A stretch of DNA of 58,587 nucleotides from Opitutia bacterium (lineage in GTDB: Bacteria > Verrucomicrobiota > Verrucomicrobiia > Opitutales > UBA953): contig CANCHK010000124.1 in NCBI GenBank assembly GCA_947377865.1, positions 1 to 58,587 on the forward strand, written 5' to 3'. The notes under the pieces are model-generated. The model was not told the DNA's origin. It saw only the letters and a program-made list of their open reading frames with translations, and ran no database searches. Made by a program: the position numbers and the translations under genes. This document shows positions 32,634-48,196 of this stretch, in pieces; the first letter of the stretch is position 1, and the number at the start of each line of letters is the position of its first letter.

Positions 32634-32870
32634 CTAGGCGGTGATGATTTTGTTCACTGGCCTGTAGCAGGCACGGTAGTGCGTCCGGCAATAGGAGACG
32701 CGGTGGATCACTTCACCGCAGAATAGCGTTCCGTCATCTTCGTCTTGCCCAACGACATACCGGCACGACGAAAATCGAAGCTCCAGAATTGTCACCCCCG
32801 AATGTTGTTTATCCCCCCCGCTTACGGGGAGGATATTGTTGTCATCTTTGCAATTGTCGGGCATGATCAT
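32634..32870 (-). CDS. GcrA-like C-terminal domain protein
   Basis: A 78-aa protein. Residues 28-74 read VTILELRFSSCRYVVG, then LFCGE and SYCRTHYRACYRP. This matches the C-terminal part of the GcrA family (LEL..x..C+..hG, FCG, YC..H....Y.P), a sigma-70-binding cell-cycle regulator confined to Alphaproteobacteria. The N-terminal helix-turn-helix domain of full GcrA (about 170 aa) is absent, so it may bind RNA polymerase without DNA specificity. It is 12 bases downstream of the DnaA-like gene, with which it should be co-transcribed. Identification rests on pattern, not alignment. Confidence 0.68.
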   Translation of the reverse strand: MIMPDNCKDDNNILPVSGGDKQHSGVTILELRFSSCRYVVGQDEDDGTLFCGEVIHRVSYCRTHYRACYRPVNKIITA

Positions 32871-32882
32871 CTTGTGCCTGCG

Positions 32883-33389
32883 CTACGCTTCTGTGTCACA
32901 GGCATCCGTAAACGCAACTTGCCTCGCCCAAGGTTCATCGCCTTTGGCGAGGTTTTTCTTGTGGCGGTTGATGGCATGCAGAATCGTCGTGTGGTCGCGA
33001 CGTCCCAACATATTGCCAATCTGCTTCAGGGAAAATCCCAACTCGGTGTTGAGCCTGTATGACGCCTCCTGCCGGGCGCAGACATACGCCTTCAGGCGGG
33101 CGGCGCTCTGGACCTGCTTCACGGTCATGCCGTGCTTTTCGGCTACCTCGCGCAGGATCGTCTGCGCGGGCGTCTCAGGCATGCGTATCTGCTGCATGGC
33201 TGGGGTTATAGCCTCAATCACTGGGGGCTGCTCCACGGGCTCCGGAGGCGGGTTGTCGAGCGGGTCTGGATAGGTTTGAGGCTCGGGGTAAATCAATCGC
33301 ACCGCCGGCTCCTTCTTCTTGATGACTGGATTGTCCAGACGCGAGCGGACGGCCTTGTAGTGGGCGTGGAGTTCTTCAAGCGTTAACAT
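32883..33389 (-). CDS. Stand-alone DnaA domain IV protein
   Basis: A 168-aa protein with a Pro-rich, disordered first part. Residues about 76-147 match DnaA domain IV: ILREVAEKHGMTVKQVQS, then GFSLKQIGNMLGRRDHTTIL, with the RDHTT DnaA signature at 131-135. The ATPase domain III and domains I-II are missing, so it cannot initiate like DnaA but could bind DnaA boxes. It could compete with host DnaA, mark the phage origin, or repress. AAGGGGAAAT lies before the start. It heads the DnaA-like/GcrA-like pair at the distal end of the early operon. Confidence 0.82.
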   Translation of the reverse strand: MLTLEELHAHYKAVRSRLDNPVIKKKEPAVRLIYPEPQTYPDPLDNPPPEPVEQPPVIEAITPAMQQIRMPETPAQTILREVAEKHGMTVKQVQSAARLKAYVCARQEASYRLNTELGFSLKQIGNMLGRRDHTTILHAINRHKKNLAKGDEPWARQVAFTDACDTEA

Positions 33390-33400
33390 TTGATTTCCCC

Positions 33401-33535
33401 TTATTCAATGTTGTCTTGGATCAGGTTCCATATTGCAAGCAACAGGAATAGCATTGCGCCGAAGCATGAGATGATAACAACCCCCGTCACCATCGTGAAG
33501 CATATGTTAATCAGGGTGTGCATGTAGTCAGTCAT
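33401..33535 (-). CDS. Small membrane protein, 44 aa
   Basis: ATG at 33535 opens a 44-aa frame (MTDYMHTLINICFTMVTGVV) that is nearly all one or two hydrophobic helices (ISCFGAMLFLLLAIWNLIQ). AGGAGTAATA lies just before the start. It overlaps the end of the next upstream small gene (ATGACTGA). This internal start is preferred to a longer frame from 33625, which has no ribosome site. Confidence 0.7.
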   Translation of the reverse strand: MTDYMHTLINICFTMVTGVVIISCFGAMLFLLLAIWNLIQDNIE

Positions 33536-33629
33536 TATTACTCCTAAGTTCCAGAAAGATGGCGAAGAGGCCGAGAGCAGATAGAACAATGAGGGCGCTA
33601 CCAATGACAGCCTGAAAAAAATCAATCAT
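33528..33629 (-). CDS. Tiny membrane peptide, 33 aa
   Basis: A 33-codon frame (MIDFFQAVIGSALIVLSALG, then LFAIFLELRSNND) with one TM helix, preceded by GGAGGGGAAGG. It starts inside the end of the 33622 gene (ATGATTGA overlap) and ends inside the start of the 33401 gene, so it is in phase with the packed operon. Small size makes it easy to miss. Likely translated. Confidence 0.65.
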   Translation of the reverse strand: MIDFFQAVIGSALIVLSALGLFAIFLELRSNND

Positions 33630-33888
33630 CCTTCCCCTCCAGTGCTTTGCGAGCGATGTTGATGCGCTCAGATAAAATTTGCGCTACGTCGAACATGTTG
33701 CCCATCGTACTAGTTGACCATTCAGTTTCATAACCCGCTGCTATCTCCCGCAGCGCCGCCTCTAGCTGTTTGTTCCTGACCCTGTAGCCAACAAGCTCAA
33801 GCTCCAGCCGCATAACTTGGCTCTTAAGCCGATCAATCCACTCGTTTTGTTCATTGAGCATCTTTTGAACCCGTGAGGCTTCAGTCAT
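33622..33888 (-). CDS. LEGKDD-family coiled-coil protein, copy A
   Basis: An 88-aa helical protein. The N-terminus is MTEASRVQKMLNEQNEWIDR, then LEAALREIAAG, and it ends IARKALEGKDD. The same N-terminus starts the gene at 35047 and the same tail ends several neighbours. The start at 33888 is chosen because it lies in the GGAGGGGAAAGATGACTGA junction. It belongs to the array of paralogues between 33622 and 35312. Function unknown; coiled coil suggests a protein-binding role. Confidence 0.78.
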   Translation of the reverse strand: MTEASRVQKMLNEQNEWIDRLKSQVMRLELELVGYRVRNKQLEAALREIAAGYETEWSTSTMGNMFDVAQILSERINIARKALEGKDD

Positions 33889-34435
33889 CTTTCCCCTCCA
33901 GTGCTTCACGAGCAACACGCCGCATGGCTTGCGACACAGGGCAGCACTCCCACCCGTCAGACAGGTCACGCAGCGCCGCCTCTAACTTTTCAATACGGTC
34001 AGCTTGCTTTTTTGTGTGCGGCACCAATTCATCTGCAAATTTGATATAATCCGCAAGCAGTTCATCCGTTTGCTTGGCATGACTTGAAGCAAGAAAAAGA
34101 CGCTCATACTTTTCTTCAGTCGTATGCCCATCCCATTCGCTGCTATATGCTGGCAAGTGAGCAAACAGATGCGCTTCGCTGTCATGGTAGTGCCATGATG
34201 CCTGACCAACCGGCAAGTCGATATATACACAGTTGTGCCACGCCTCATCCCATCCGGGGATAGCTGTTTTCTTTACGCCAGACGGATAGATGCTGGCAAG
34301 GAAAGCAACCAAACGATTGCGTTCTGTATATGCCCCGTCACGCGCCGCCTCCAGCTTCTCGATGCGGCTGGCAGCTTCAAAGACCATTCCACATGAGCCA
34401 TATTCGCGCAGTTGCGCTACAAGATCATCAGTCAT
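33881..34435 (-). CDS. LEGKDD-family coiled-coil protein, copy B (184 aa)
   Basis: A 184-aa protein: MTDDLVAQLREYGSCGMVFE, a first RIEKLEAARD helix, a central region with WDEAWHNCVYIDLPVGQ, then a second RIEKLEAALRDLSDGWECCP and tail VAREALEGKDD. It is a longer paralogue with two LEAA helices, perhaps a fusion of two copies with an inserted domain. The start at 34435 overlaps the stop of the gene before by ATGACTGA. Confidence 0.75.
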   Translation of the reverse strand: MTDDLVAQLREYGSCGMVFEAASRIEKLEAARDGAYTERNRLVAFLASIYPSGVKKTAIPGWDEAWHNCVYIDLPVGQASWHYHDSEAHLFAHLPAYSSEWDGHTTEEKYERLFLASSHAKQTDELLADYIKFADELVPHTKKQADRIEKLEAALRDLSDGWECCPVSQAMRRVAREALEGKDD

Positions 34436-34643
34436 CTGTTCTCTCCTGTGCTTTGCGGGCAATGTCGCTGACGTACATCACCCGATCCCTGAATGGGATC
34501 TCATGCACTTCTGCCATTTCCATCACATCCCGCAGCACGGCTTCCAGCTTTTCGATACGGTCGGCGGCTCTGCGATAATCTTCAATGACCAAAAGCTGAT
34601 GTTCAGCATTCAACCGCAGGTCAATCACAAGATCGTCACTCAT
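34428..34643 (-). CDS. LEGKDD-family coiled-coil protein, copy C
   Basis: A 71-aa protein: MSDDLVIDLRLNAEHQLLVI, then RIEKLEAVLRDVMEMAEV, ending ARKAQERTDD. The tail is a divergent form (ERTDD in place of LEGKDD) but keeps the ATGACTGA overlap with the next gene. The start at 34643 follows GGGGGAAAA. Function unknown. Confidence 0.75.
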   Translation of the reverse strand: MSDDLVIDLRLNAEHQLLVIEDYRRAADRIEKLEAVLRDVMEMAEVHEIPFRDRVMYVSDIARKAQERTDD

Positions 34644-34833
34644 CGAAGTTTTCCCCCTCTTCATATTCAACTTCAACCTTCAACCGTGCAACAGGCTTCT
34701 TAACCCTATAGCTCGCCCAATAATCCGCCGCAGCTTTAGTTACGAATGCTTCGACATACACATCGTTTTCGCCAATGTTGATGTAGAGCATTTTCTTGAT
34801 ACGTTTAGGTGGGGTTTTTGAAGATTCGTTCAT
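34636..34833 (-). CDS. Small early protein, 65 aa
   Basis: A 65-aa protein (MNESSKTPPKRIKKMLYINI, ENDVYVEAFVTKAAADYWAS, ending YEEGENFDE). It is not a member of the coiled-coil array but is embedded in it and overlaps both neighbours. It starts inside the tail of the 34805 gene, where TACGATGAACG supplies a start with weak ribosome site. No domain recognised. Confidence 0.65.
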   Translation of the reverse strand: MNESSKTPPKRIKKMLYINIGENDVYVEAFVTKAAADYWASYRVKKPVARLKVEVEYEEGENFDE

Positions 34834-35047
34834 CGTAGATTCCTTCTAATGTTTCACGCGCAATTCTGCGATATGTCCAAAGCATTTTTGTTTCGTCTAT
34901 TGAGCATGTCCCATCAGAATATTCGACGGTTCGCGATCCGCAAATCCACCGCAGTGCCGCTGATAGCATAGCATTGCGTTCTTTGAGCCGGTCAATCTCA
35001 GCATTCTGCTCAGTGAGCAGCTTCTGGACCCGTGAGGCTTCAGTCAT
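34805..35047 (-). CDS. LEGKDD-family coiled-coil protein, copy D
   Basis: An 80-aa protein: MTEASRVQKLLTEQNAEIDR (same N-terminus as copy A), NAMLSAALRWICGSRTV, then IARETLEGIYDERIFKNPT. The tail diverges after LEG and continues, so the conserved junction is lost here. The start at 35047 lies in the same GGAGGGGAAAGATGACTGA context as copy A, and the nucleotide sequence around both starts is nearly identical over about 40 bases. Confidence 0.76.
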   Translation of the reverse strand: MTEASRVQKLLTEQNAEIDRLKERNAMLSAALRWICGSRTVEYSDGTCSIDETKMLWTYRRIARETLEGIYDERIFKNPT

Positions 35048-35312
35048 CTTTCCCCTCCAGTGCTTTGCGGGCGATGTAAGAAGCATTGCGCATGTCATAC
35101 ACATGCTGACCGCCTTTCGGATCGTCCAAAGCGCCAACGATCTCCCGCAGCGCCGCCTCCAGCTCATCAATACGAGCCGCATAACTGTTACAGATGCGAT
35201 TCCACTCTTCTTCCCCGGACTCCAACTGCTCGATGCGGGCCGCTGCCTCCGCTGGCTCTTTGCAGGCGCAGGCGAACATGTGGCGAAGACGGAAGGGTAG
35301 GGATTCGGTCAT
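35040..35312 (-). CDS. LEGKDD-family coiled-coil protein, copy E
   Basis: A 90-aa protein: MTESLPFRLRHMFACACKEP, RIEQLESGEEEW, then RIDELEAALREIVGALDDPK and tail IARKALEGKDD. It carries the fully conserved LEGKDD tail, whose codons also form the ribosome site for copy D. It starts in an ATGA overlap with the gene at 35309. Function unknown. Confidence 0.78.
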   Translation of the reverse strand: MTESLPFRLRHMFACACKEPAEAAARIEQLESGEEEWNRICNSYAARIDELEAALREIVGALDDPKGGQHVYDMRNASYIARKALEGKDD

Positions 35313-35641
35313 AGCCCGTCTCCTTCGGCAAAATCCAACTCGACCTTGATGCAGGCGATGCGGTTGGTGATGTCATAATGTGCGTTTTCGGTAGCGCAGA
35401 CGGTGCTATTTTCAAACACATGTAGCCACACCGTCCGCTTGTGGCGGGGGCGAACTTCGATGAGGTCGTCTGAAAATCGCATGTTGCCGCCAAAACCACC
35501 GTCTGAACTCCAATCCTCACGAACCCATCCCTCGTCTGTTTTGATTGCGCCGTGAACTGGACGAATACCAGCCCCATCCGTCGCATAGATGCGGACTTCA
35601 CGGCCATCTCTGGTTTTGTAAGTTTTAGATTTGTCGATCAT
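35309..35641 (-). CDS. Early protein, 110 aa, unknown function
   Basis: A 110-aa protein (MIDKSKTYKTRDGREVRIYA, TDGAGIRPVHGAI). It looks like a compact beta domain with strand-like repeats. Both ends overlap neighbours by ATGA, so it is translationally coupled. Similar phage proteins with a YKTRDGREVRIYATDG opening exist to my knowledge, without known function. Confidence 0.7.
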   Translation of the reverse strand: MIDKSKTYKTRDGREVRIYATDGAGIRPVHGAIKTDEGWVREDWSSDGGFGGNMRFSDDLIEVRPRHKRTVWLHVFENSTVCATENAHYDITNRIACIKVELDFAEGDGL

Positions 35642-35838
35642 TTTGGAACCTCTAACTTTGCGGCTTGCATCATTTCAGCAATCTGCAATGCCAAATGACC
35701 GTCCAGCCTGAAATATATGCGTTTCCCATCTGCATCCGTCAGATTGCGACAAGCCATCATCAGCCATTCGGCTAACTCTTCTTTGGATTTAGGTTTGTAG
35801 CTTGAGAGAAGATCCATCGGTTTTTCATGCGTAAGCAT
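35638..35838 (-). CDS. Small early protein, 66 aa
   Basis: A 66-aa protein (MLTHEKPMDLLSSYKPKSKE, ELAEWLMMACRNLTDADG), mostly helical. The ATG at 35838 is chosen: GGAG lies 8 bases before it and it overlaps the preceding stop (TGATG). No family recognised. Confidence 0.7.
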   Translation of the reverse strand: MLTHEKPMDLLSSYKPKSKEELAEWLMMACRNLTDADGKRIYFRLDGHLALQIAEMMQAAKLEVPK

Positions 35839-36077
35839 CACTCATTCTCCTTCTTGGGCGGCACAGGCAAAGGCATCCAGTGGGTGGGTTGATGTTCGTC
35901 ATTTAACTTCAACCATGTTGCCCTTTTCATCCCAGCCCATTCCATTTTATATAAACAACACCAACCGGAAACCCATTTGATTTCCCCAACTCTGAGATCA
36001 GGGTTTTCGCTGGGAATCTTGCCCTTTAAGGTTGTCCCATCCTTTGGCGCAGTCTCTATCGGTCGCCATTTAGTCAT
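35838..36077 (-). CDS. DUF551-like small protein
   Basis: A 79-aa protein: MTKWRPIETAPKDGTTLKGK at the start and PTHWMPLPVPPKKENE at the end. The WRPIETAPKDG opening and the PTHWMPLPxPP close are the recurring ends of the DUF551-type phage proteins I know; their function is not established. The start at 36077 follows AAGGGGAAGAAC and overlaps the preceding stop by ATGACTAA. Confidence 0.75.
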   Translation of the reverse strand: MTKWRPIETAPKDGTTLKGKIPSENPDLRVGEIKWVSGWCCLYKMEWAGMKRATWLKLNDEHQPTHWMPLPVPPKKENE

Positions 36078-36384
36078 TGTTCTTCCCCTTCTTCTTTTCA
36101 ACAATCGCTCTAAGTTTTTCAACGTACCAATCCCACCGGCACGATGCTCGATCTTTCAGCCCGTCTATTTTGTCTGCGATGAACAGTTCATTCCCATCAA
36201 GAAGGCGTTTGTTCATCGCCATATTGGCAATGATTTCCCAATCTGCTTGATCTCGCCTGCTATGCTGTGCAGACAACTGGATACCGTCTGTCATCCCCTT
36301 TGTGAGCCAATAAACCGCATCAATGTTTTCTTGAACAGATTTGGACGCAAAACTGTACAGTTGAAACTTTTCATTCTCAGTCAT
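36070..36384 (-). CDS. Early protein, 104 aa, unknown
   Basis: A 104-aa helical protein (MTENEKFQLYSFASKSVQEN, IDAVYWLTKGMTDGIQL) with a basic C-terminus (KKKGKNND). It overlaps the winged-helix gene upstream by ATGACTGA, the same 8-base junction as in the coiled-coil array, although it is not a member of that family. Function unknown. Confidence 0.68.
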   Translation of the reverse strand: MTENEKFQLYSFASKSVQENIDAVYWLTKGMTDGIQLSAQHSRRDQADWEIIANMAMNKRLLDGNELFIADKIDGLKDRASCRWDWYVEKLRAIVEKKKGKNND

Positions 36385-36766
36385 CTTTCTCTCCCATCAA
36401 CATCTCGACCTTCGTCTTGTTCTCATCATCCAGATAGTAGCCAACGCCCCTAATGGTGCTGACTTCAATGCCATGCTCGCGCAGCTTCTTCCGCAGCTTG
36501 TGCATTGCAACTTTGACGCGATGGTAGGCGTAGTCCTCACCCTCACCTCTATTCAGGTGGCCTGTCGCCATGCCAATGGCATCCAGATAGGCATAGGTAG
36601 CAGTCCGCTTGTTGTAGATACCAAACAGAAGCGCCGCATGTTGACGCGCCAACAGATGCAGGAATGGGTTGTCACCCGGAACAAGCTCTTCGCGAAGTTG
36701 GCGCAGTTGCTCTTCCAGAAGATGAATGCGGTCATAAAGCTGCCGGATGTGTGTCGCGTCATCCAT
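36377..36766 (-). CDS. Coiled-coil plus CtrA/OmpR-type winged-helix DNA-binding protein
   Basis: A 129-aa protein. The N-terminal coiled coil (IRQLYDRIHLLEEQLRQLRE) is followed by a winged helix: LLFGIYNKRTATYAYLDAIG, then VKVAMHKLRKKLREHGIEVS and TIRGVGYYL. The K-L-R-K-K-L helix followed by T-I-R-G-V-G-Y is the OmpR/PhoB/CtrA recognition helix and wing signature. There is no receiver domain, so it would be phosphorylation-independent. Its tail (MGEKDD) meets the next start with the ATGACTGA junction. A CtrA-like target specificity is possible but not shown. Confidence 0.72.
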   Translation of the reverse strand: MDDATHIRQLYDRIHLLEEQLRQLREELVPGDNPFLHLLARQHAALLFGIYNKRTATYAYLDAIGMATGHLNRGEGEDYAYHRVKVAMHKLRKKLREHGIEVSTIRGVGYYLDDENKTKVEMLMGEKDD

Positions 36767-36767
36767 A

Positions 36768-36851
36768 TCAAAACCCCCATCCAATGATGATATTGATCCC
36801 CACAAGGAACATCATTGTTCCGATCATTTTTAATTCGATGTCGTATGTCAC
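36768..36851 (-). CDS. Tiny membrane peptide with GTG start, 27 aa
   Basis: GTG at 36851 overlaps the preceding stop (GTGA) and opens 27 codons (VTYDIELKMIGTMMFLVGIN, then IIIGWGF), a single TM helix. It ends one base before the winged-helix start. The overlap and hydrophobic pattern make translation plausible despite its length. Function unknown. Confidence 0.5.
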   Translation of the reverse strand: MTYDIELKMIGTMMFLVGINIIIGWGF

Positions 36852-37078
36852 GGCGTACCCCTCCATGCCGCATAGGCGCGACGGCGCAGTTCTTCGCGCG
36901 TGTCGTGATCCTGAATGTGTTCGAATGCGGTCTTGAGAATATAACCCATATGGGTCATGGCGTTGTCGATGTACGCCGCCGCCTCTGGGCCGTTGGGATT
37001 GACTGGCAAGATCCATGTCCCACCAAACCCCATGTCATGCTCCCGAGTGCGGCGGAGCTTTTCTTGTATCTGCTGCAT
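36848..37078 (-). CDS. Early protein, 76 aa
   Basis: A 76-aa protein: MQQIQEKLRRTREHDMGFGG, TWILPVNPNGPEAAAYIDNA, then EELRRRAYAAWRGTP. The start at 37078 has ATGGAGATTGG upstream, the leader motif common to many leftward genes, which decides it over a longer frame from 37159. Unknown function. Confidence 0.68.
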   Translation of the reverse strand: MQQIQEKLRRTREHDMGFGGTWILPVNPNGPEAAAYIDNAMTHMGYILKTAFEHIQDHDTREELRRRAYAAWRGTP

Positions 37079-37173
37079 GTCCAATCTCCATATCAATGTT
37101 GGCGACTTCCCGACCATAGTACCAAGAAGTTGCCGTTCCATTAACGCGGACACGCGCACACTGTATCAATTTG

Positions 37174-37536
37174 CTACGCCTGCGGCTCCGGAGCCGTCTC
37201 TGGCTCTGGGTGCGCCTTGTTCAACATCTCTACCATTTCCCGCATGCTCTCATTGAGAACTGCATCAATGTCGTGCCCGGATGTGGCATATTCCCCGGCA
37301 AAGGCCAGATAGTTGATGCCGTCAATGTAGCTGTCCTTCTTGGACGGGGCCGCACGGATGCGGGCCAGCTTCAGGGCGTGGAGGAAGATGTTGGCCTCAT
37401 AGGGCGTGATCGAACGCCCCGTGATAATTCCGAAGATGTCGCAGGCGCGGGTGATGGTGACAGTCATCTCGCCGTACTGCTCATTGCGCTCGCGGAGGAT
37501 GGCGGCCGCACTGCCAAGGATTGCCTTGTGTTCCAT
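37174..37536 (-). CDS. DUF6378-like protein
   Basis: A 120-aa protein: ILRERNEQYGEMTVTITRAC in the N-terminal half, then ITPYEANIFLHALKLARI, APSKKDSYIDGINYLAFAGE. The R-x-x-x-Y-G region and the L-K-x-A-R followed by K-D-S-x-x-D match the DUF6378 family of phage and alphaproteobacterial proteins, of unknown function; its nucleotide-pyrophosphatase-like helices are only a suggestion. GGAAAT lies upstream of the start. Confidence 0.75.
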   Translation of the reverse strand: MEHKAILGSAAAILRERNEQYGEMTVTITRACDIFGIITGRSITPYEANIFLHALKLARIRAAPSKKDSYIDGINYLAFAGEYATSGHDIDAVLNESMREMVEMLNKAHPEPETAPEPQA

Positions 37537-37545
37537 GTCGATTTC

Positions 37546-38235
37546 CTACTTCTTCTTGATCAGGCGGTTGATTTTTGAGCGGGCTATGTCGATCGCTGCG
37601 TGAACTTTCTTGCTCTCATTTACAATCCTGTTCTGATCATCGACCATTTTCTTTATGATCTGATCCCTCTCCATCCAAACCGTTCTTATCTTAATCATAA
37701 GAACGTCCGCGTCAGCCACATATGACTGCAATTCTTTGACCGCCAAACTGACTTCGTCGCCCTTCTCAGGCCCGAAGTTTTCTTCCCTGACGCTGCGCAC
37801 CCAGCCGACCGGAACCTTCAGCGAGGCCGCAACTTTCTCGTCGTCCCAGCCCTCTGCGTAGCCACGGGACTCGTCGAGGTAATGGCTGTCAATTTCGCCA
37901 AAGATGATGCGGCGCTCTTCCTTCGTGATGTTCAGGGGAACTGTTGGAGTTTTTGTTTTTTCTGTGCGTCTCCGGCGAGTAACGCCCGGAGGCGTTTCAC
38001 CGAAGATTTTTTTCAACTCGTCAAGCTTTACATAACTGAAGTGGGGCGACGGTTGCCTGCGAGAAATCTGGCCGAGCTTGGCCATTTCTGACAGTTTGCT
38101 GTGGCTGGCCCAGCCGAGGCGGTCGGCCTCTTTGATGGCTATCTCTCCGGGGAGGGGAGTAAGTGGCCCGGCGTATTCAACTGTGTGGACCCGCTTGTTT
38201 TGTTCTGTTTCTGACTGACTGGCATGCTCATTCAT
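37546..38235 (-). CDS. Putative DNA-binding protein with helix-turn-helix-like segment
   Basis: A 229-aa charged protein. The N-terminal part contains ADRLGWASHSKLSEMAKLGQ, and the middle has ESRGYAEGWDDEKVAASLKV followed by PVGWVRSVREENFGPEKG, which looks like a helix-turn-helix (AASLKVPVGWVRSVRE). The C-terminal helical tail (IDIARSKINRLIKKK) is very basic. It may be a regulator or replication helper. GGAGATGGAAA precedes the start. Confidence 0.6.
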   Translation of the reverse strand: MNEHASQSETEQNKRVHTVEYAGPLTPLPGEIAIKEADRLGWASHSKLSEMAKLGQISRRQPSPHFSYVKLDELKKIFGETPPGVTRRRRTEKTKTPTVPLNITKEERRIIFGEIDSHYLDESRGYAEGWDDEKVAASLKVPVGWVRSVREENFGPEKGDEVSLAVKELQSYVADADVLMIKIRTVWMERDQIIKKMVDDQNRIVNESKKVHAAIDIARSKINRLIKKK

Positions 38236-38250
38236 TTTCCATCTCCAATG

Positions 38251-38505
38251 TTAATCGTTCCTGTTGCTGAGTTCTTTGATCTTTCCGATGTACCTGTGAT
38301 TGATGCCCGTCAACCCACGAGAGTAATAGGCATCGTGATCGCTCTTTGATTCCGTGTTCCGGTAGAATTCCTCGACGATGATAAAGTCGTGGCTTTCAAG
38401 CGCCTTGCAGAAGTCTGCAATTCCCGTCGCCGGGTACTCGCAGATGACTTGGTGGATTGGAACGCCAGAACGCGCCGGCATATTCATCGTGATCAAAAAC
38501 TTCAC
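38251..38505 (-). CDS. Early protein, 84 aa, GTG start
   Basis: An 84-aa protein (MKFLITMNMPARSGVPIHQV, SHDFIIVEEFYRNTES) with alternating strands and helices. The GTG start at 38505 has GGAGAATGAT directly upstream. No family recognised. It lies between the SSB-like and HTH-like genes, and a hairpin separates it from the former. Confidence 0.65.
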   Translation of the reverse strand: MKFLITMNMPARSGVPIHQVICEYPATGIADFCKALESHDFIIVEEFYRNTESKSDHDAYYSRGLTGINHRYIGKIKELSNRND

Positions 38506-38524
38506 ATCATTCTCCAGCGGTGGT

Positions 38525-38546
38525 GGGGCGGGCCGAAACCCGCCCC
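38525..38546 (-). terminator. Intercistronic GC hairpin
   Basis: GGGGCGGG (38525-38532) and CCCGCCCC (38539-38546) form a perfect 8-bp stem downstream (in the leftward sense) of the SSB-like gene. In the leftward direction no T-run follows, so it may stabilise the upstream mRNA or act as a partial attenuator. Confidence 0.55.
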
Positions 38547-38552
38547 TGTTGA

Positions 38553-39233: not shown

Positions 39234-39371
39234 TGTACTTCTCCAGATGCGCCTGTTTGGCCGGACGCTCGCCTTTGCCCACATGGGCGAAACTTGTGCA
39301 GGGGGCGGGATTTTCACCCACATCTTCGGGGAGCAGCTTCCGAAAGTTTGCGTTAACCTACCCCTGCCCGG

Positions 39372-40124: not shown

Positions 40125-40154
40125 TGGTCACTTTCAATTTCGAACGTGACGCAG

Positions 40155-40182
40155 CCTAGACTGATTCGCGAAAGGGCGTCAA
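40155..40182 (-). promoter_or_regulatory. Candidate leftward early promoter
   Basis: On the minus strand TTGACG (complement of 40177-40182) and TCTAGG (complement of 40155-40160) are 16 bases apart, directly upstream of the nuclease gene. The -10 is weak. The left outer operator arm (40162-40171) lies inside the spacer, so a bound regulator would block it. Confidence 0.4.
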
Positions 40183-40244
40183 GAGACATTTTGTCCATTC
40201 CCCCAATTGACACTGTGGACAAAATGTCCCAACCTCGCGAATCA
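40162..40244. promoter_or_regulatory. Nested inverted-repeat operator between divergent early operons
   Basis: Outer arms TGATTCGCGA (40162-40171) and TCGCGAATCA (40235-40244) are exact reverse complements, as are inner arms GACATTTTGTCC (40185-40196) and GGACAAAATGTC (40217-40228). Each inner arm is itself a GACA-N3-TGTC dyad, so there are at least two 11-13-bp sites spaced 32 bp apart (about three helical turns). TTGACA (40207-40212), a likely rightward -35, lies between them. It is the expected target of the small HTH protein at 40375. Confidence 0.75.
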
Positions 40245-40256
40245 CAGGAGGGCAAA

Positions 40257-40388
40257 ATGTATGACGCAATTCAGTACGCCTTGATCGTGATGGCCATGAT
40301 CTCTGGCCTAATCATGTTGGGGGTTGGCCTCATGTCCGCCCTCGACAATCTCTTGGACTTTTGTGGTGGTGACGATGAAGAAGACTGA
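40257..40388 (+). CDS. Small membrane protein, 43 aa
   Basis: A 43-aa protein (MYDAIQYALIVMAMISGLIM, then LGVGLMSALDNLLDF) with one TM helix and an acidic tail (GGDDEED). CAGGAGGG lies just before the ATG at 40257. First gene after the operator, so expressed earliest. Function unknown; possibly superinfection exclusion or host membrane effect. Confidence 0.7.
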   Translation: MYDAIQYALIVMAMISGLIMLGVGLMSALDNLLDFCGGDDEED

Positions 40389-41042: not shown

Positions 41043-41049
41043 AATTGAG

Positions 41050-43176: not shown

Positions 43177-43541
43177 TGGAGAACGAAAACGTGAACCCCT
43201 TGGATATTGAGATCAAAGACCTTCGCTTCAAAATGTCGGCACGGCTGTGGAATTGTCTGTGGCACGACAATATGGAGACCCTTGGCGACGTTGTTAAGCT
43301 TGAGGCATGTGAATGGCTTCGGTGCCCCGGCTTCGGGCGCTTAACGCTGAAGGAGTTGGAGGATTTCCTCGCCACTTACGGTCTTCAGCTCAAGGCTGGG
43401 CGCCTGCCGCCAAGAGAACTCGCCGCAGACAAGGTCAAGAAGCTGGAAAGGGCACTGCGCGAAATAGCCAGAGTCAACAACAGCCGCGACCGCTATAGCG
43501 ACGAAATCGACCGCATCATCCTCAAGGCGTTGGAGATTTGA
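43176..43541 (+). CDS. RNA polymerase alpha-CTD-like protein
   Basis: A 121-aa protein. Residues about 9-72 (LDIEIKDLRFKMSARLWNCL to LKELEDFLATYGLQL) match the alpha C-terminal domain. By position the E. coli DNA-contact residues R265, N268, C269, G296 and E302 correspond to R, N, C, G and E here; K298 is L and S299 is T. The rest is a helical tail (KKLERALREIARVNN to ILKALEI) resembling the LEGKDD family. It could bind UP-element DNA or compete with host alpha. It overlaps the preceding stop (TGATG). Confidence 0.75.
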   Translation: MENENVNPLDIEIKDLRFKMSARLWNCLWHDNMETLGDVVKLEACEWLRCPGFGRLTLKELEDFLATYGLQLKAGRLPPRELAADKVKKLERALREIARVNNSRDRYSDEIDRIILKALEI

Positions 43542-43542
43542 A

Positions 43543-43809
43543 ATGGGAAACAACATTATCCGCCTCTCAAGAGAAGAGATACAAATGGCCGAAGACCTCG
43601 GCCTGACGCTTCTGGAATATGCGCGCGGCAAGAGCGAGCTGATGAAGCAACAGGCCGAATACGAGGCATGGCTCCAAACCCCTGCGGGTGTCGCCTACAT
43701 GGCCAAGAGGGATGAAGCCTACCAGCGCAGGCTGGCCAAACAGCGCGAATACAACCGCGCCTACAGGGCGAGGAAGAGGGCGCAGAGGGAGGCGGCCAAT
43801 GCCCCTTAA
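43543..43809 (+). CDS. Small basic protein with scaffold-like helix motif
   Basis: An 88-aa protein. IRLSREEIQMAEDLGLTLLE followed by YARGKSELMKQQ parallels the C-terminal RLSKEEIETARDLGMTEKEY of the scaffold. The C-terminal third is very basic (RAYRARKRAQREAANAP). GGAG precedes the start. Possible capsid or nucleic-acid interaction. Function unknown. Confidence 0.7.
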   Translation: MGNNIIRLSREEIQMAEDLGLTLLEYARGKSELMKQQAEYEAWLQTPAGVAYMAKRDEAYQRRLAKQREYNRAYRARKRAQREAANAP

Positions 43810-44026
43810 ACCCATCTCCAAGCGCCGCTGGAAGGCCCGCCTGATGCAGGGGCTGTGGATACCCCGCATGGTCATTGAGGCCCACTCCCTGACCGCCCCA
43901 GAGGGCTGCAAGCTGGTCTGGCACCCTACCGAAGACTTCATCAAGGTTGCCCATCCCTTTTCAATTGCATACCGCCCCTACCGCCCCGGCGACCGCTTCG
44001 ACGGCCAAAAACGGGCGTGGGAGTGA
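43799..44026 (+). CDS. Small protein, 75 aa
   Basis: A 75-aa basic protein (MPLKPISKRRWKARLMQGLW, IPRMVIEAHSLTAPEGCKLV). The ATG at 43799 lies in GGGAGGCGGCCA and overlaps the preceding gene by 11 bases, which decides it over a start at 43688. No family recognised. The last gene before the iteron region. Confidence 0.68.
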   Translation: MPLKPISKRRWKARLMQGLWIPRMVIEAHSLTAPEGCKLVWHPTEDFIKVAHPFSIAYRPYRPGDRFDGQKRAWE

Positions 44027-44044
44027 AAACAGGCTGCGGAACTA

Positions 44045-44132
44045 GTGCGGAGGTTAAAAAGCCCAGAAATCCGGGCAAAATTTACTAACCTCCGCATTAC
44101 CTCCGCACAACCTCCGCAAGCGCCGGAGGTTG
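44045..44132. repeat. Iteron array, candidate replication origin
   Basis: Three directly abutting 11-mers (44086-44096, 44097-44107, 44108-44118) have the form (T/C)(A/T)ACCTCCGCA, so they repeat once per helical turn. An exact inverted copy TGCGGAGGTTA lies at 44046-44056 and a partial inverted copy CGGAGGTTG at 44124-44132, which with 44108 makes CAACCTCCG-N7-CGGAGGTTG. An AT-rich stretch (about 44066-44085) lies inside. Tandem iterons beside the primase-helicase are typical of origins, but a regulator-binding array is the alternative. Confidence 0.65.
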
Positions 44133-44383
44133 TGCGGGGTGTTGGGGTGTAATGTTTTACATTGACACCCCCCGCAGGAGGCGGGGTGAGTTCCGCAAGA
44201 CGCAATGGAGGGTCTAGGGGCGCGCTTCGCGGCCCCCTCTCATGGACCGGACATTGTGGAGGGGGCGGGGTCGGCTCTCCGCTCCGCTGCGAGCCTCGCC
44301 CGCGTTGAGACGTTGGAGACGGGATTGACGTGCTGAAGAAGGAACGCTAACGATTAACATTAGCAGTCAGGATGGAGGTTGGA
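44133..44383. other. Rest of the 357-bp non-coding region
   Basis: No credible gene is seen. It holds AATGT-ttt-ACATT (44151-44163) overlapping a TTGACA-like box, several GC-rich hairpins (for example GGGGC...GCCCC at 44217-44236), an imperfect GCTAA-N9-TTAGC dyad at 44346-44364, and the GGAGG ribosome site for the gene at 44384. It may hold the promoter for that gene. Confidence 0.6.
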
Positions 44384-44974
44384 ATGGAATATGAGATCGT
44401 GAAGGTGGGCGGCGTCCCGTTGAAGGTTCACTCGTATGAGGTGACGATCAGGCAGGCGGGTGACTGGCGGCTGGTCGAATGTACAAAATATTCGAAGGAC
44501 GGTTGGAAGAGCCTCAAGTTGTACCTCGACCGACCGGCGAGGAAGAATGTCTGGCGGCTCGGCGTCAAGGGGACGTACATGGCCGGGACGAGCGACAGCG
44601 TGTTGCTGGTCGAGTTTTACCCCGCCATGCGCGATTGGGTCGTGGCGCAGGTGAATGGCAAGGACGTATCACTCCCGGCAGATGATGGGGCCGCCCCGGA
44701 GGCGATATATGTCCCCCCGAAGGTCAGAGACTTCGTGATTGAGAGTATCTTGGAGCGTATGCTCGCCGTCAGGCCTCCGCTCTCGCACAAGGCGCAGACG
44801 AAAAAGTTGGGGCGCTACATCGTGGACATGATTGCGGAGGAGTTCGGGGTGTCACCCGCCAAGGCAAAATCGTATGTCACGGCCTTGATCGACAGGGGCG
44901 TCATTGAGTTCGCCATGATCGACAAGCACAATCGGATCAGCGGCCTGCGTCTGGTGGAGGCGGCCAATGGCTAA
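44384..44974 (+). CDS. Early protein with C-terminal winged-helix-like domain
   Basis: A 196-aa protein. The N-terminal half is beta-rich (MEYEIVKVGGVPLKVHSYEV). The C-terminal part KLGRYIVDMIAEEFGVSPAK, AKSYVTALIDRGVIEFAMID looks like a winged helix. The ATG at 44384 has GGAGG five bases before it, better than 44372. Immediately downstream of the iteron region, so it could bind it, which is inference. Confidence 0.62.
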   Translation: MEYEIVKVGGVPLKVHSYEVTIRQAGDWRLVECTKYSKDGWKSLKLYLDRPARKNVWRLGVKGTYMAGTSDSVLLVEFYPAMRDWVVAQVNGKDVSLPADDGAAPEAIYVPPKVRDFVIESILERMLAVRPPLSHKAQTKKLGRYIVDMIAEEFGVSPAKAKSYVTALIDRGVIEFAMIDKHNRISGLRLVEAANG

Positions 44975-45605
44975 ATCCACGGAGAAGCCCAAGGCGTGGC
45001 CCAAGGGCACGAAGACGGCGTTCGGGATGCCGACGTCGGACAGGAGCACCCCGGACTGGCATGCCACCCCCGGCACATACATCGCCGGGCGGGAAGTCCT
45101 CGATGATATGGATATGGTCGCCGTCGCCATGGAGGAGAAGTGGGGCAGGGACCGCCTGCGCCTGTTGGTGCCCCGCGAGCTGCGCGAGAAGTTCGACCGG
45201 CAGCGGTACAAGGTCAACAACGCCATCTGGCACGGCAACCTTCAGGACGTGAAGGTGGAGGCCGACCGCATGATCAAGGCTTGGAATGCTCTGGACAGGG
45301 CTGCGGAGGCCGCTGGGGCGCATACACTGGCCCCCGAGGTCTGGGAGTGCGTCACGCCCGAGGGGACTGTGGTGGCCCTCGTCAGGAACGACATGGATCT
45401 GCGCAAGGTTGTGGCCGACGGCAGGCACGTCGAGGTCTACACAGTGGCAGAGGTGGGCAGGCTCTTGGCCAACTATCCGACGCTGGCGGCCGTCAAGGCC
45501 AGCTTCCCCGGCGCGCAGGTCGAGAGGGTGTCGGGGCCGCCCCGCGACCCCTTGCAGGCCATCCCCGACAGCAAGGCCCCGATTGACGACGCAATTCCGT
45601 GGTAG
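44967..45605 (+). CDS. Early protein with SSB-like C-terminal tip
   Basis: A 212-aa basic-to-neutral protein (MAKSTEKPKAWPKGTKTAFG). The central helices include LREKFDRQRYKVNNAIWHGN. The last residues (KAPIDDAIPW) resemble the acidic tip of SSB (DDxIPF) that recruits replication proteins. It overlaps the preceding gene by 8 bases and shares its ribosome site. Function unknown. A link to replication is inferred from the tip and neighbours. Confidence 0.6.
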   Translation: MAKSTEKPKAWPKGTKTAFGMPTSDRSTPDWHATPGTYIAGREVLDDMDMVAVAMEEKWGRDRLRLLVPRELREKFDRQRYKVNNAIWHGNLQDVKVEADRMIKAWNALDRAAEAAGAHTLAPEVWECVTPEGTVVALVRNDMDLRKVVADGRHVEVYTVAEVGRLLANYPTLAAVKASFPGAQVERVSGPPRDPLQAIPDSKAPIDDAIPW

Positions 45606-45614
45606 GAGGAAAGC

Positions 45615-45872
45615 ATGAACCAAAAGTACGACATACTCGACCCAAGCGGCGGCGCCCTCCAGATTTTGGAGACGTGCCTTGCGGACAAGGTTTGGAATCT
45701 TCTCTCGCGCGAGAGTGGCTTCAGCACCCAATGGCTCACGCTCTACTTCAACGAGCCCGAGGAGGACGTGTGGGACGCCGTCGATCAGCTTATTGATGAG
45801 GAGCGCGCTTACTTCACGCCCGCCGGGCGAAGGCTCAATCCGATCTGGCCCGACATCGGGCAGGCCCACTAA
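45615..45872 (+). CDS. Small acidic protein, 85 aa
   Basis: An 85-aa acidic protein (MNQKYDILDPSGGALQILET, FSTQWLTLYFNEPEEDVWDA). The helix-turn pattern SGFSTQWLTLYFNEPEEDVW, then LIDEERAYFTPAGRRL looks winged-helix-like, but weakly. GGAGGAAA precedes the start. The last rightward early gene, followed by a bidirectional hairpin. Confidence 0.65.
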   Translation: MNQKYDILDPSGGALQILETCLADKVWNLLSRESGFSTQWLTLYFNEPEEDVWDAVDQLIDEERAYFTPAGRRLNPIWPDIGQAH

Positions 45873-45879
45873 AGCGAAA

Positions 45880-45911
45880 GGGCCGGGGAACGCTGAACCA
45901 GCCCCCGGCCC
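45880..45911. terminator. Bidirectional hairpin between convergent genes
   Basis: GGGCCGGGG (45880-45888) and CCCCGGCCC (45903-45911) form a perfect 9-bp stem, between the convergent ends of the rightward early genes (45872) and the leftward cluster (45940). It probably stops read-through in both directions, although there is no T-run. Confidence 0.65.
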
Positions 45912-45939
45912 CCCATACCTGACAGCACCCCCTCGGGCG

Positions 45940-46161
45940 TCAGGCAATCTGCAATGACTTGACCAGACGGTCCTCGACCCACTCAATCGACAGTAGGCCC
46001 TCGAATATGGCGTGGAGGACAATGTCCACGGAAGTGGGGACGGGGTTCTTCCCCGCCAGCCACAACTGGACCGTGCGGCGGGTGACGCCCATGACGACGG
46101 CCACGTCTGCCGTGTTGAAGTCCAACTTGGCCATGATTTCTTTGAGCTGTTCGGGGGTCAA
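45940..46161 (-). CDS. HTH regulator with TTG start
   Basis: A 73-aa protein. FNTADVAVVMGVTRRTVQLW is a clear helix-turn-helix, followed by LAGKNPVPTSVDIVL. The TTG at 46161 is chosen because it overlaps the preceding stop (TTGA), with GGAG upstream; the alternative is the ATG at 46134. Cro/CI-like small regulators of this kind sit in leftward phage clusters. Target unknown. Confidence 0.68.
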   Translation of the reverse strand: MTPEQLKEIMAKLDFNTADVAVVMGVTRRTVQLWLAGKNPVPTSVDIVLHAIFEGLLSIEWVEDRLVKSLQIA

Positions 46162-46364
46162 TGTGTCATCTCCAGCAGTGCGGCCCTTGCGGAGGCCAGT
46201 GAGCGGGTGTGGCGCAAGTCGCCGTTGGTTGTTAGGGCTCGCCAGATAGGCCTGCCAGCGGCCACCGCAGAGCCTTGGCGGACCCATCCAATCAGGCGGT
46301 CGAAGTAGTAGACCTCGTAGCAGCCGTCGGCCTGCTTGCGGGACGTGTGGATGGGGTGCGGCAT
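46158..46364 (-). CDS. Small early protein, 68 aa
   Basis: A 68-aa protein (MPHPIHTSRKQADGCYEVYY, FDRLIGWVRQGSAVAAGRPI) of beta-rich type. It overlaps the gene before by ATGA and the regulator after by TTGA. No family recognised. Confidence 0.65.
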   Translation of the reverse strand: MPHPIHTSRKQADGCYEVYYFDRLIGWVRQGSAVAAGRPIWRALTTNGDLRHTRSLASARAALLEMTH

Positions 46365-46561
46365 CAGATGAACTCCCCGATGATGACGGCGTTGATCTTG
46401 GCGACGAAGGGCGCAAGCTGGGCGCGGGCCTTGGTCAACACGTCAGCCTGCGGATTGGTCAAAAAACGAATCTCGTCGGGGTGCAGCTTGGCGTAGTGGG
46501 CCAGCTTCAGGGCGTTCATGTCTGTGGGGTTCTTCTTGTAGGCTTCGATAAACTTGAGCAT
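46364..46561 (-). CDS. Small early protein, 65 aa
   Basis: A 65-aa helical protein (MLKFIEAYKKNPTDMNALKL, AHYAKLHPDEIRFLTNPQAD). The start at 46561 is chosen for the GGAGATTGAC leader (shared by several genes here), over the ATG four codons upstream in the same frame. No family recognised. Confidence 0.65.
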   Translation of the reverse strand: MLKFIEAYKKNPTDMNALKLAHYAKLHPDEIRFLTNPQADVLTKARAQLAPFVAKINAVIIGEFI

Positions 46562-46582
46562 GTCAATCTCCATAGAGTGGGA

Positions 46583-46606
46583 GGGGGCCGAAGCCCCCGG
46601 TTTTTT
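46583..46606 (+). terminator. Rightward intrinsic terminator inside the leftward cluster
   Basis: GGGGGC-CGAA-GCCCCC (46583-46598) followed by GG and six T (46601-46606) reads as a terminator on the plus strand, opposite the leftward genes. On the minus strand it is a GC hairpin between two genes, without a T-run. It would stop antisense transcription from the left. Confidence 0.7.
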
Positions 46607-46769
46607 AAAAGTTCCAAGCAGTGAGGTTGCGTTTTTTGCAGATCGTGTTTGCTTCGCGCTTGCCGCTGATCTTGATGACTTCGGCATTCTGAAACTCTTC
46701 GCCGTTGCAGGGGCGAGCGCAAATGCGAAGTTCGAAGCCCGTGCGGGTTTTGAAGAAGTAAGCGATCAT
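46605..46769 (-). CDS. Small early protein, 54 aa
   Basis: A 54-aa basic protein (MIAYFFKTRTGFELRICARP, NAEVIKISGKREANTICKKR, ending NLTAWNF). It has Cys at CARPC and C-K-K, too few for a certain zinc site. ATGGAGATTGA is directly upstream of the ATG at 46769. Its stop overlaps the terminator T-run on the other strand. No family recognised. Confidence 0.65.
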   Translation of the reverse strand: MIAYFFKTRTGFELRICARPCNGEEFQNAEVIKISGKREANTICKKRNLTAWNF

Positions 46770-46790
46770 TTCAATCTCCATGAGGTAGGT

Positions 46791-46806
46791 GGGGGCCGGA
46801 GCCCCC
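46791..46806 (-). terminator. Intercistronic hairpin
   Basis: GGGGGC-CGGA-GCCCCC lies between the leftward genes at 46815 and 46605. It resembles the hairpin at 46583-46598, giving these leftward genes a repeating hairpin-ribosome-site pattern. Confidence 0.6.
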
Positions 46807-46814
46807 GTTGATGA

Positions 46815-47117
46815 TTAGGCCGCCTTCTTGACCTTCTTGGCCTTGATGCGGATGACGGGGAATGCCGCGCCCTCGACCTTGCAGGAGTCGATCTGGGCCT
46901 GCGTCAGGCCGAAGGCCAGCAGCATCTTCTCGTCGATGGACTTGCGGGACTGGACGGCGACGTCGAGGTCGGCAGTCTCGCCTTCGAGGAAGCCATAGCC
47001 GCCGACGATGGCGATCACGTCGGCCTTGGCGGCCTTCACGATGGACTCGGCCTGATCGAGCTGGTTTTTGGCGGCGAGGTAGACTTCAACGGCGGCGGTG
47101 GTGTTGGAAGCGGTCAT
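46815..47117 (-). CDS. Early protein, 100 aa, unknown
   Basis: A 100-aa helical protein (MTASNTTAAVEVYLAAKNQL, DQAESIVKAAKADVIAIVGG) with a basic tail (RIKAKKVKKAA). The start at 47117 has the GGAGATTGAC leader. It is the first gene behind the promoter at 47165-47193. No family recognised. Confidence 0.7.
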   Translation of the reverse strand: MTASNTTAAVEVYLAAKNQLDQAESIVKAAKADVIAIVGGYGFLEGETADLDVAVQSRKSIDEKMLLAFGLTQAQIDSCKVEGAAFPVIRIKAKKVKKAA

Positions 47118-47164
47118 GTCAATCTCCATCTGGTTAAGTTCCGGTCTGTCTTGACCGTGATTTG

Positions 47165-47193
47165 AATCTACGCGAATCAATTTCGCCTGTCAA
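47165..47193 (-). promoter_or_regulatory. Leftward promoter with dyad spacer
   Basis: On the minus strand TTGACA (47188-47193), 17-base spacer, TAGATT (47165-47170). The spacer contains GCGAA-ATTGA-TTCGC, a perfect dyad that could be an operator. The promoter at 47658-47686 has a similar spacer. Confidence 0.72.
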
Positions 47194-47225
47194 CAGGGGG
47201 AGAGAAAATAATTCGCCCCCCCTGT
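47193..47225 (-). repeat. Inverted repeat upstream of the leftward promoter
   Basis: ACAGGGGG (47193-47200) and CCCCCTGT (47218-47225) are reverse complements, ending at the -35 box of the promoter at 47165. The stem lies just after the gene at 47234 (leftward) and may end its transcript. Confidence 0.6.
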
Positions 47226-47233
47226 GAATAATT

Positions 47234-47419
47234 TTATTCGACGTTTTCGGCTTCGGGCTCGTACACGCTTTCGATTTTGATCACGCACCAGCGGTGGCCG
47301 GTGTTCGCGGTGCGGCGGTCTGCTTGCTGCTTTGCCTGACTGAGCCAGCAGAACGTGTCGGCAATGGCGATCTGCTGGGCGAAGGACAGGTCGGAGTCGT
47401 TGTCGATCAGATAATACAT
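47234..47419 (-). CDS. Small acidic early protein, 61 aa
   Basis: A 61-aa protein (MYYLIDNDSDLSFAQQIAIA, DTFCWLSQAKQQADR) with an acidic C-terminus (EPEAENVE). AAGGAG lies upstream of the start. Translation is plausible. No family recognised. Confidence 0.65.
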   Translation of the reverse strand: MYYLIDNDSDLSFAQQIAIADTFCWLSQAKQQADRRTANTGHRWCVIKIESVYEPEAENVE

Positions 47420-47422
47420 GGT

Positions 47423-47611
47423 TCAGGCTCCTTCGATGATGTTGAAGACAATCTGGTCGCGCTCGTCCTGCGAGACGCTGAACACGTCGCCGTTGGTCAG
47501 CTTGAGGAAGAGGTCGATCTGCTCTTCTGAGGGCTCAGGGGTGCCGATCCAGCGCGAGTAGTCGTATGCGTCACGGGCATCTTGGCGCTTCTCTGCGAGG
47601 TAGTCGGTCAT
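47423..47611 (-). CDS. Small early protein, 62 aa
   Basis: A 62-aa protein (MTDYLAEKRQDARDAYDYSR, EPSEEQIDLFLKLTNGDV). The start at 47611 is preceded by GGAGATCGAC, a variant of the common leader. It is the first gene from the promoter at 47658-47686. Unknown function. Confidence 0.65.
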   Translation of the reverse strand: MTDYLAEKRQDARDAYDYSRWIGTPEPSEEQIDLFLKLTNGDVFSVSQDERDQIVFNIIEGA

Positions 47612-47657
47612 GTCGATCTCCATCGGGTAAGTGATTCGGTCAGCGACCTTGATTAAT

Positions 47658-47686
47658 CTTGTACGCGAACAAATTACGCCTGTCTA
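47658..47686 (-). promoter_or_regulatory. Leftward promoter similar to that at 47165
   Basis: On the minus strand TAGACA (47681-47686), 17-base spacer with a GCGTA...TTCGC half-dyad, TACAAG (47658-47663). Sequence similarity to the promoter at 47165-47193 extends over the spacer, suggesting the same regulator. Confidence 0.55.
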
Positions 47687-47757
47687 CTCCCTCCAAGCAA
47701 AAAATCGACATTTTTCAAAAAATAATTTCGGTGGTATCTCCGGGGCAGGAGACGCCC
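47687..47757. other. AT-rich divergent intergenic stretch
   Basis: A 71-base AT-rich segment with CAAAAAATCGACATTTTTC and AAATAATTT runs, then the CAGGAG ribosome site of the next gene. It probably holds the rightward promoter of the gapR-like/terminase operon, but no convincing -35/-10 pair was seen. Confidence 0.4.
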
Positions 47758-47982
47758 ATGCCAAAGCCCCGAATTGACGCCGAAGCCGAATTACGAGACA
47801 CTATCTCTCGGGCAGTCTGCTCCCTCGGGGGCAGCGCCTCAGACGCCTGTGAACAGGTCTGCATATGGTGCCGCGAGAACGCAGACGTTTTGATTGAAAT
47901 CTTCAGGAAATACGAGGGGACCTATGATAAGCAACAACCAAATCGCCTCCGTCGTGGAGCGCATCGAACGCATGGAAGATGA
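47758..47982 (+). CDS. Small protein at the start of the packaging operon, 74 aa
   Basis: A 74-aa protein (MPKPRIDAEAELRDTISRAV, CSLGGSASDACEQVCIWCRE) with four Cys in the first 46 residues. CAGGAG lies 8 bases before the start. It overlaps the GapR-like gene by 59 bases in another frame. Function unknown. Confidence 0.6.
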   Translation: MPKPRIDAEAELRDTISRAVCSLGGSASDACEQVCIWCRENADVLIEIFRKYEGTYDKQQPNRLRRGAHRTHGR

Positions 47983-48196
47983 AAAGACCGCCATATCCAT
48001 CGACATCTCCGAGATCTACAAGGAAGCCAAGGGCAACGGCTTCGACACCAAAATCCTCAAAAAAGTCATAGCGTTGCGCAAAAAGCCCCAGCACCAGCGC
48101 GACGAGGAACAGACCATCCTCGACCTCTACATGTCCGCAGTCGAAAGCTTCGACAAGACGCCGCTCGGCGCAGCCGCCAAACAGGACGATCGGTAA
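47924..48196 (+). CDS. GapR-like DNA-binding protein (DUF2312)
   Basis: A 90-aa protein. IASVVERIERMEDEKTAISI, DISEIYKEAKGNGFDTKILK, KVIALRKKPQHQRDEEQTIL, then DLYMSAVE match the DUF2312/GapR family throughout its length. GapR, a nucleoid protein of Alphaproteobacteria, encircles overtwisted DNA ahead of polymerases and supports replication in Caulobacter. A phage copy could assist phage replication or displace the host one. The start at 47924 has GAGGGGA. Immediately upstream of the small terminase gene. Confidence 0.85.
   Translation: MISNNQIASVVERIERMEDEKTAISIDISEIYKEAKGNGFDTKILKKVIALRKKPQHQRDEEQTILDLYMSAVESFDKTPLGAAAKQDDR

Follow-up and report, generated by a model that had tools for sequence, protein, structure and literature searches.

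Why would a phage carry detached domains of proteins that control the bacterial cell cycle? The question is raised by contig CANCHK010000124.1 of assembly GCA_947377865.1 (58,587 nucleotides, called the window throughout), which belongs, as contig G000:C124, to a 2.32-Mb bin that is 75.7% complete. A preliminary description had singled out four of its proteins, resembling DnaA, GcrA, CtrA and GapR, as a kit for overriding host cell-cycle control. Profile searches gave firm assignments for three of them (DnaA, GcrA and GapR) and a weak one for the fourth, a winged-helix protein. Here, we report that two of the genes, one encoding a protein with domain IV only of DnaA (DnaA-IV) and the other a protein with only the sigma-interacting domain (SID) of GcrA, are a conserved adjacent pair, and a new one. 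We tentatively propose that the pair encodes a split GcrA-like transcription factor that would act mainly on the phage's own promoters.

A DnaA domain IV and a GcrA SID in adjacent genes

The DnaA-IV gene (32883..33389, minus strand) encodes 168 amino acids. In a Pfam scan the protein matched Bac_DnaA_C (PF08299) at 57 bits against a cut-off of 31.5 and did not match the DnaA ATPase family (PF00308), whose one match in the bin lies on another contig, C12; the claim that only domain IV is present was therefore borne out. An alignment of 16 such proteins, all of which match PF08299, consists of a nearly invariant N-terminal segment, a variable proline-rich linker and domain IV. T3, E5 to R15, R17 and L18 of the N-terminal segment are invariant in 16/16 members, as are R106 and D132-H133-T134-T135 (DHTT) of domain IV. 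The proteins also retain the residues that align to the recognition residues of PDB 1j1v, which we take to contact DNA. The window protein matches phrog_27829, described as a DnaA-like replication initiation protein.

The second gene (32634..32870, minus strand) encodes a 78-amino-acid protein that matched the GcrA family (PF07750) at 38.5 bits against a cut-off of 26.9, over profile positions 97 to 149 of 155 only. The N-terminal DNA-binding domain of GcrA, with its helix-turn-helix, is absent, because the match begins at position 97 and the preceding gene stops 12 bases upstream. A GcrA match of 40.3 bits that runs through the stop of the DnaA gene was taken as noise over the 38.5 bits. The earlier view that only the C-terminal part of GcrA is encoded was thus correct. 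A profile built from the phage SID-only proteins found as its top two PDB matches the GcrA chains 5yix_B (E 1.6e-7) and 7ye1_G (E 7.3e-7), the sole further match up to E 10 being a defensin (E 0.57), and it covers residues 105 to 156 of 7ye1_G. In the GcrA structure as outlined in PMC7403470, residues 1 to 45 form the DNA-binding domain and residues 108 to 173 the SID, which binds sigma domain 2; given the span matched in 7ye1_G, the phage protein is the SID. Across an alignment of 15 sequences, 14 of which match PF07750, C36, R37, C51, G52, Y60, C61, H64 and C68 are invariant. PF07750 is not perfectly specific on its own, because in a control with 14 named genomes it matched not only Caulobacter but also Sulfolobus acidocaldarius. 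A scan of viral contigs with the SID protein alone yielded 12 stretches that fit a pattern, none of which was confirmed, and SID relatives were found instead by searching whole records with Pfam and by reading downstream of DnaA.

To follow the pair in relatives, 50 related records, picked for length and closeness, were searched whole by Pfam (the loci, L006 to L156, number 151). GcrA was matched in 24 records and DnaA_C in 20. We counted a GcrA match as SID-only if it began at profile position 49 or later, and as having the N-terminal half if it began at position 13 or earlier. By this measure 16 of the 24 are SID-only, and each of the 16 has as its neighbor a DnaA_C match in the same orientation, the gap from one domain match to the other being no more than ~250 bp. 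None of the eight with an N-terminal half has such a neighbor; one of these (G048) holds a stop, and G040 has its DnaA_C 2.2 kb off. The adjacency is limited to SID-only GcrA, which speaks for DnaA-IV as a replacement for the DNA-binding half that was lost. DnaA_C without a SID neighbor was seen in G015, where the contig ends, and in G025, G040 and G049. Among the DnaA loci that were fetched, 20 of 24 have a short GcrA-like open reading frame right after DnaA (some of these loci are identical in sequence), one more (L073, from record G024) proved paired in the whole-record search, and L076 ends. The short GcrA next to the DnaA-IV of L072 (3723-4025) has a helix-turn-helix-like front and is possibly an intermediate form.

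DnaA boxes in a family of phage promoters

A DnaA-box-like site, TTATTCACA, lies at 47223..47231 on the minus strand of the window, 29 bp before the -35 of a promoter-like element at 47165..47193 (minus strand). This element is composed of a -35 TTGACA (47193-47188), a 17-bp palindromic spacer (47187-47171) and a -10 TAGATT (47170-47165). A second element of the same type, TAGACA-17-TACAAG, lies at 47658..47686 (minus strand) and has no DnaA box; at the matching place several relatives have TTATCCACA and several others have none. Downstream of both elements are small genes (46815..47623, minus strand), presumably expressed from them, with a repeated leader like ATGGAGATTGACATG. The combination of box and promoter occurs once in the window and in 0 of 300 shuffles, while the -35/spacer word, with up to three mismatches, occurs twice against 1.6 expected, which is not above chance, and its exact copy is single. 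In both elements the spacer (47171-47187 and 47664-47680, minus strand) is itself an inverted repeat (CGAA...TTCG), positioned between -35 and -10 as an operator might be. One further box with a single mismatch, at 40214-40222, was not used because it falls within an inverted repeat; this repeat, around GGACAAAATGTC at 40140-40240, lies upstream of the minus-strand gene block and has a counterpart near position 4274 of L252.

Promoters of the same type occur in relatives. In G004, TTATCCACA occurs five times against 0.1 expected; four copies are intergenic, each directly upstream of a sigma-70-like element whose spacer is palindromic, and one lies in a primase-like gene. The primase-gene box, which several relatives share by its flanks, was left out of the promoter-box count. 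The promoter pattern used for counting was written after boxed examples had been seen, and the box was no part of it. Over the loci collected there are 68 distinct promoters of this type, of which 45 have TTWTNCACA within 45 bp upstream, and the boxed promoters mostly carry a perfect TTATCCACA. Box and -35 are separated by 14 bp in 20 of the 45 and by 25 bp in 16, two classes one helical turn apart, and by other values between 15 and 35 bp in the remaining 9. Among the 14 nonredundant promoters of the 14-bp class, all nine columns of the box show conservation of 90% or more, a level reached by 21% of those that separate it from the -35.

We then compared promoter presence in 17 records, each covered completely or for the most part. 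Of the eight with an adjacent pair, seven have this type of promoter; of the nine without one, none does, the presence of the matching region in each of the nine being unchecked. The eighth pair-bearing record (G016) ends inside GapR, short of the promoter region. Counting both strands (G038 is reversed), a box lies upstream in six of the seven records that have pair and promoter. When the collection was scanned for the module in one strict version, 20 stretches were found.

Other regulators, the phage and its host

The winged-helix protein (36377..36805, minus strand) has a coiled coil and a winged helix, probably of OmpR/PhoB type, and its gene is in the same minus-strand block as the pair. 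It had been described as a CtrA/OmpR-type winged helix without a receiver, of which the missing receiver was upheld, the OmpR/PhoB type drew weak matches and the tie to CtrA found no support. The same Pfam scan, read to E 1, gave no match to a receiver family. Its Trans_reg_C match (PF00486) reached 24.4 bits (E 3.1e-5), just under the cut-off of 26.2; this family was matched in 9 of the 50 related records, in none above the cut-off. A profile search of PDB gave 2m1b (E 1.7e-4) and the PhoB family (5.7e-4). The structure model (predicted local distance difference test score, pLDDT, of 80) has an N-terminal helix in place of a receiver, and Foldseek placed it with the DNA-binding domains of SaeR, YycF, ToxR and CadC (probability 0.98 to 0.99, E 0.056 to 0.22), with MarR-type and ribosomal proteins also listed. 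In NCBIfam the window protein had only a weak match to TctD, and 11 members of its family matched TctD (7), BirA repressor (6), BirA (1) and PspA (1). We set aside identity with CtrA: the matches are weak and of OmpR/PhoB type in general, and no library match names CtrA, in searches that included no direct comparison with CtrA and with the presence of a CtrA model in NCBIfam unchecked. The CtrA site TTAA-N7-TTAA was seen 0 times in the window against 0.18 expected. Of 17 sequences that carry the pair, 14 also have the winged-helix gene; it was not found in G038, G019 and the 20-kb piece L252.

The GapR-like gene (47894..48196, plus strand) lies just before the gene of the terminase small subunit and starts at either TTG 47894 or ATG 47924. 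The preliminary description had chosen the latter, and its identification as GapR was confirmed at 96.3 bits against a cut-off of 22.6 (PF10073, Pfam scan). Co-occurrence in related phages was a check that it set for the four genes. This holds for DnaA and GcrA, which are conserved together, and not for GapR, which was matched in 20 of the 50 related records, is absent from the complete relative G020 and, being variable among relatives, is outside the core of the system. Among 50,697 phage records, matches to GapR-like proteins occur in 154, to DnaA-IV in 24, and to the SID and the winged helix in 1 each; at least two records were matched for GapR and DnaA alike, the full overlap of these searches being uncounted.

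The window is most likely a complete circular phage genome: its ends (1-149 and 58439-58587) share an exact 149-base overlap that closes a circle of ~58.4 kb, and it encodes terminases, portal, major head protein, tail fibers and primase/helicase. Terminal overlaps also occur in G004 (99 bases), G020 (123) and G040 (127). By its large terminase, the nearest named phage is the uncultured phage MW202675 (64% identity), and 16 of the 30 records listed in that comparison come from phages that infect Alphaproteobacteria. The bin appears to be Opitutae and shares its genus with G108 and with an Opitutae metagenome-assembled genome; CANBWJ010000128.1, from an Opitutae metagenome-assembled genome, is a close phage relative. 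GcrA is missing from 59 of 61 genomes of the bin's family; where it is present, it is on the window's contig and on contigs C128 and C127 of G108. The contigs with GcrA-SID matches in Opitutae bins would reflect either mis-binning or an unexpected host, and an alphaproteobacterial host of the window phage is likely, though unproven.

Usage of GANTC bears on the same point. Simple Markov shuffles overstated its avoidance (observed/expected 0.37 to 0.98 in Opitutae-type chromosome stretches and 0.40 in the window), and synonymous-codon shuffles were used instead. With these, GANTC is below expectation in all 17 phage records (z -2.8 to -11.3), including the window (72 seen, 123.6 expected, z -6.0) and G046 (0 seen in 63.8 kb, 92.7 expected). 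Five sets of chromosome stretches of the bin's genus gave z +0.3 to +1.7, and in G108 the phage stretch C128 gave -5.9 and C127 -1.4. The shortage would fit a GANTC-methylating host, rather than the bin's own organism, as indirect evidence. Depletion of GANTC has been published for some pelagiphages (PMC9516812, in part).

Several further observations concern the rest of the genome. A beta-1,4-glycosyltransferase-like gene (16026-17165, plus strand; phrog_13126, 328 bits) is found among the tail genes. Several short proteins encoded at 33622-35312 (minus strand) have RIEKLEAALR-like stretches in common and C-terminal ends such as ALEGKDD, and they appear to be a local, coiled-coil-like family. 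A reading frame at 45940-46416 (minus strand), with a helix-turn-helix-like stretch (VAVVMGVTRRTVQLW) spotted by eye only, is a candidate repressor.

What the pair may do, and known systems

How could two such fragments work together? We suggest that the two genes are one operon unit for a split transcription factor. DnaA-IV would bind DnaA boxes (TTATCCACA, or the window's TTATTCACA) upstream of the -35 in the promoter family, while the SID, without GcrA's reader of methylated GANTC, would grip domain 2 of the host primary sigma factor. The N-terminal segment of DnaA-IV, which is conserved, might mediate contact between the two, or they might simply occupy the promoter next to each other. The pair would recruit or stabilize host RNA polymerase at boxed promoters, which are predicted to be active, so that its effect would be activation rather than repression. 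GcrA's polymerase-contact half would have been retained, its address switched from methylated GANTC to DnaA boxes, and DnaA's ATP switch dropped. It is conceivable, if somewhat doubtful, that this makes the pair a re-addressed GcrA, with the DNA-binding domain of DnaA as a separate subunit and a DnaA-box regulon independent of both methylation and the ATP state of DnaA, in a phage group poor in GANTC (some members have none).

A number of observations weigh against the split factor. The window has one boxed promoter, its box has one mismatch, and the second element is boxless; window-wide, TTWTNCACA is not enriched (2 seen, 2.2 expected), and TTATCCACA with one mismatch was seen 10 times against 6.7 expected. 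By the TTWTNCACA pattern 23 of the 68 promoters lack a box, and G020 has the pair but only a one-mismatch variant, TTATCCATA. In the 25-bp class the box is not distinctive, since the hairpin that separates it from the -35 is likewise conserved (in 76% of columns). By arithmetic the box centers lie at about -54 or -65, far from sigma domain 2, and the -35/-10 elements look strong enough to work without an activator. Two divergent DnaA-IV loci (L074 and L075) have no SID neighbor. Pair and promoter type may simply have been inherited together. The AlphaFold model of the SID failed (pLDDT 47.6) and was too poor to inspect. Avoidance of GANTC does not follow the SID-only form or the pair: it is as strong in G044, whose GcrA has the helix-turn-helix, and in G046 and MW202675, which have neither form, as in the pair-bearing G038.

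Host DnaA, moreover, could read the same boxes. They fit the general DnaA consensus and are a perfect TTATCCACA in most boxed promoters, and the DnaA-IV gene belongs to a different gene block from the boxed promoter of the window, ~14 kb away. The boxes might then serve as a timer read by host DnaA, until the ATPase-less phage protein competes for them and alters or shuts off the promoters, with the SID acting on sigma separately. We consider this rather unlikely, as it leaves the tie between SID-only GcrA and DnaA-IV (16/16 versus 0/8) unexplained. It is less probable still that the fragments are aimed at the host as decoys, DnaA-IV blocking oriC and DnaA-controlled genes, the SID displacing host GcrA from sigma, and the winged helix and GapR completing the kit. 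Both DnaA-IV and the SID do keep a binding part and lose a regulated one, but the boxes sit in the phages' own promoters, a complete relative (G020) does without GapR, and the winged helix is not CtrA-specific. The kit against host cell-cycle control thus found no support in the promoters, and some action on the host could still accompany the pair. A role in replication, with DnaA-IV binding a phage origin in the boxed region before the terminase genes and the SID a neighbor with its own role, would agree with the description of phrog_27829, with the four boxes that G004 has in 2.5 kb, and with MW202613, where the DnaA gene adjoins a putative replisome organizer. We regard it as improbable, since the boxes precede -35/-10-like elements at set spacings, hundreds of bases apart, and the window has one such box.

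If the split transcription factor is real, the phages have performed a natural experiment in which the halves of GcrA are separable and the sigma-contact half works with another DNA address. The DNA-binding domain of DnaA could then act as a bare transcription-factor module, and two short proteins and one promoter type would offer a small system in which to study cofactors of sigma domain 2. Such a phage would rewire host cell-cycle regulators rather than merely copy them.

Parts of this picture are already known: phage GcrA (PMC3556154), phage GapR (PMC12185513), and GcrA and DnaA entries in prophages (PMC12429752), as far as the excerpts of these papers go. In the open-licence literature, at the level of titles and the beginnings of abstracts, we found no phage DnaA-IV/GcrA-SID pair and no phage DnaA-box promoter family. 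The phiCbK-like phages likewise encode pfam07750 GcrA homologs, proposed to alter the replicative state of the host; here the protein is SID only and is paired with a DnaA DNA-binding domain, whereas the excerpted text describes no DnaA piece (PMC3556154). For the Sinorhizobium phiLM21-like prophages a table lists five GcrA regulators and one protein annotated as DnaA, entries like ours, with no pairing or domain reduction described in the excerpt (PMC12429752). The Erythrobacter phages also have a GapR gene, called the first in a phage genome in the part of PMC12185513 available, compared to the 154 of 50,697 phage records with GapR-like matches here. Caulobacter GcrA, a sigma cofactor at methylated promoters, has the SID in common with the phage protein by sequence (PF07750, 5yix/7ye1), but the latter is without the DNA-binding domain (1-45) and hence without a reader of methylated DNA (PMC7403470, in part). 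With bacterial DnaA the phage protein shares domain IV, including the DHTT signature; in place of the ATPase it has a phage-specific N-terminal segment and a proline-rich linker. Phages of Alphaproteobacteria under host CtrA control also have sites for a cell-cycle factor in their promoters, and those examined in the excerpt of PMC9437464 had no positional asymmetry of DnaA sites. Such phages use a host factor, whereas the phages described here combine DnaA's site with a DnaA piece of their own (PMC9437464, in part).

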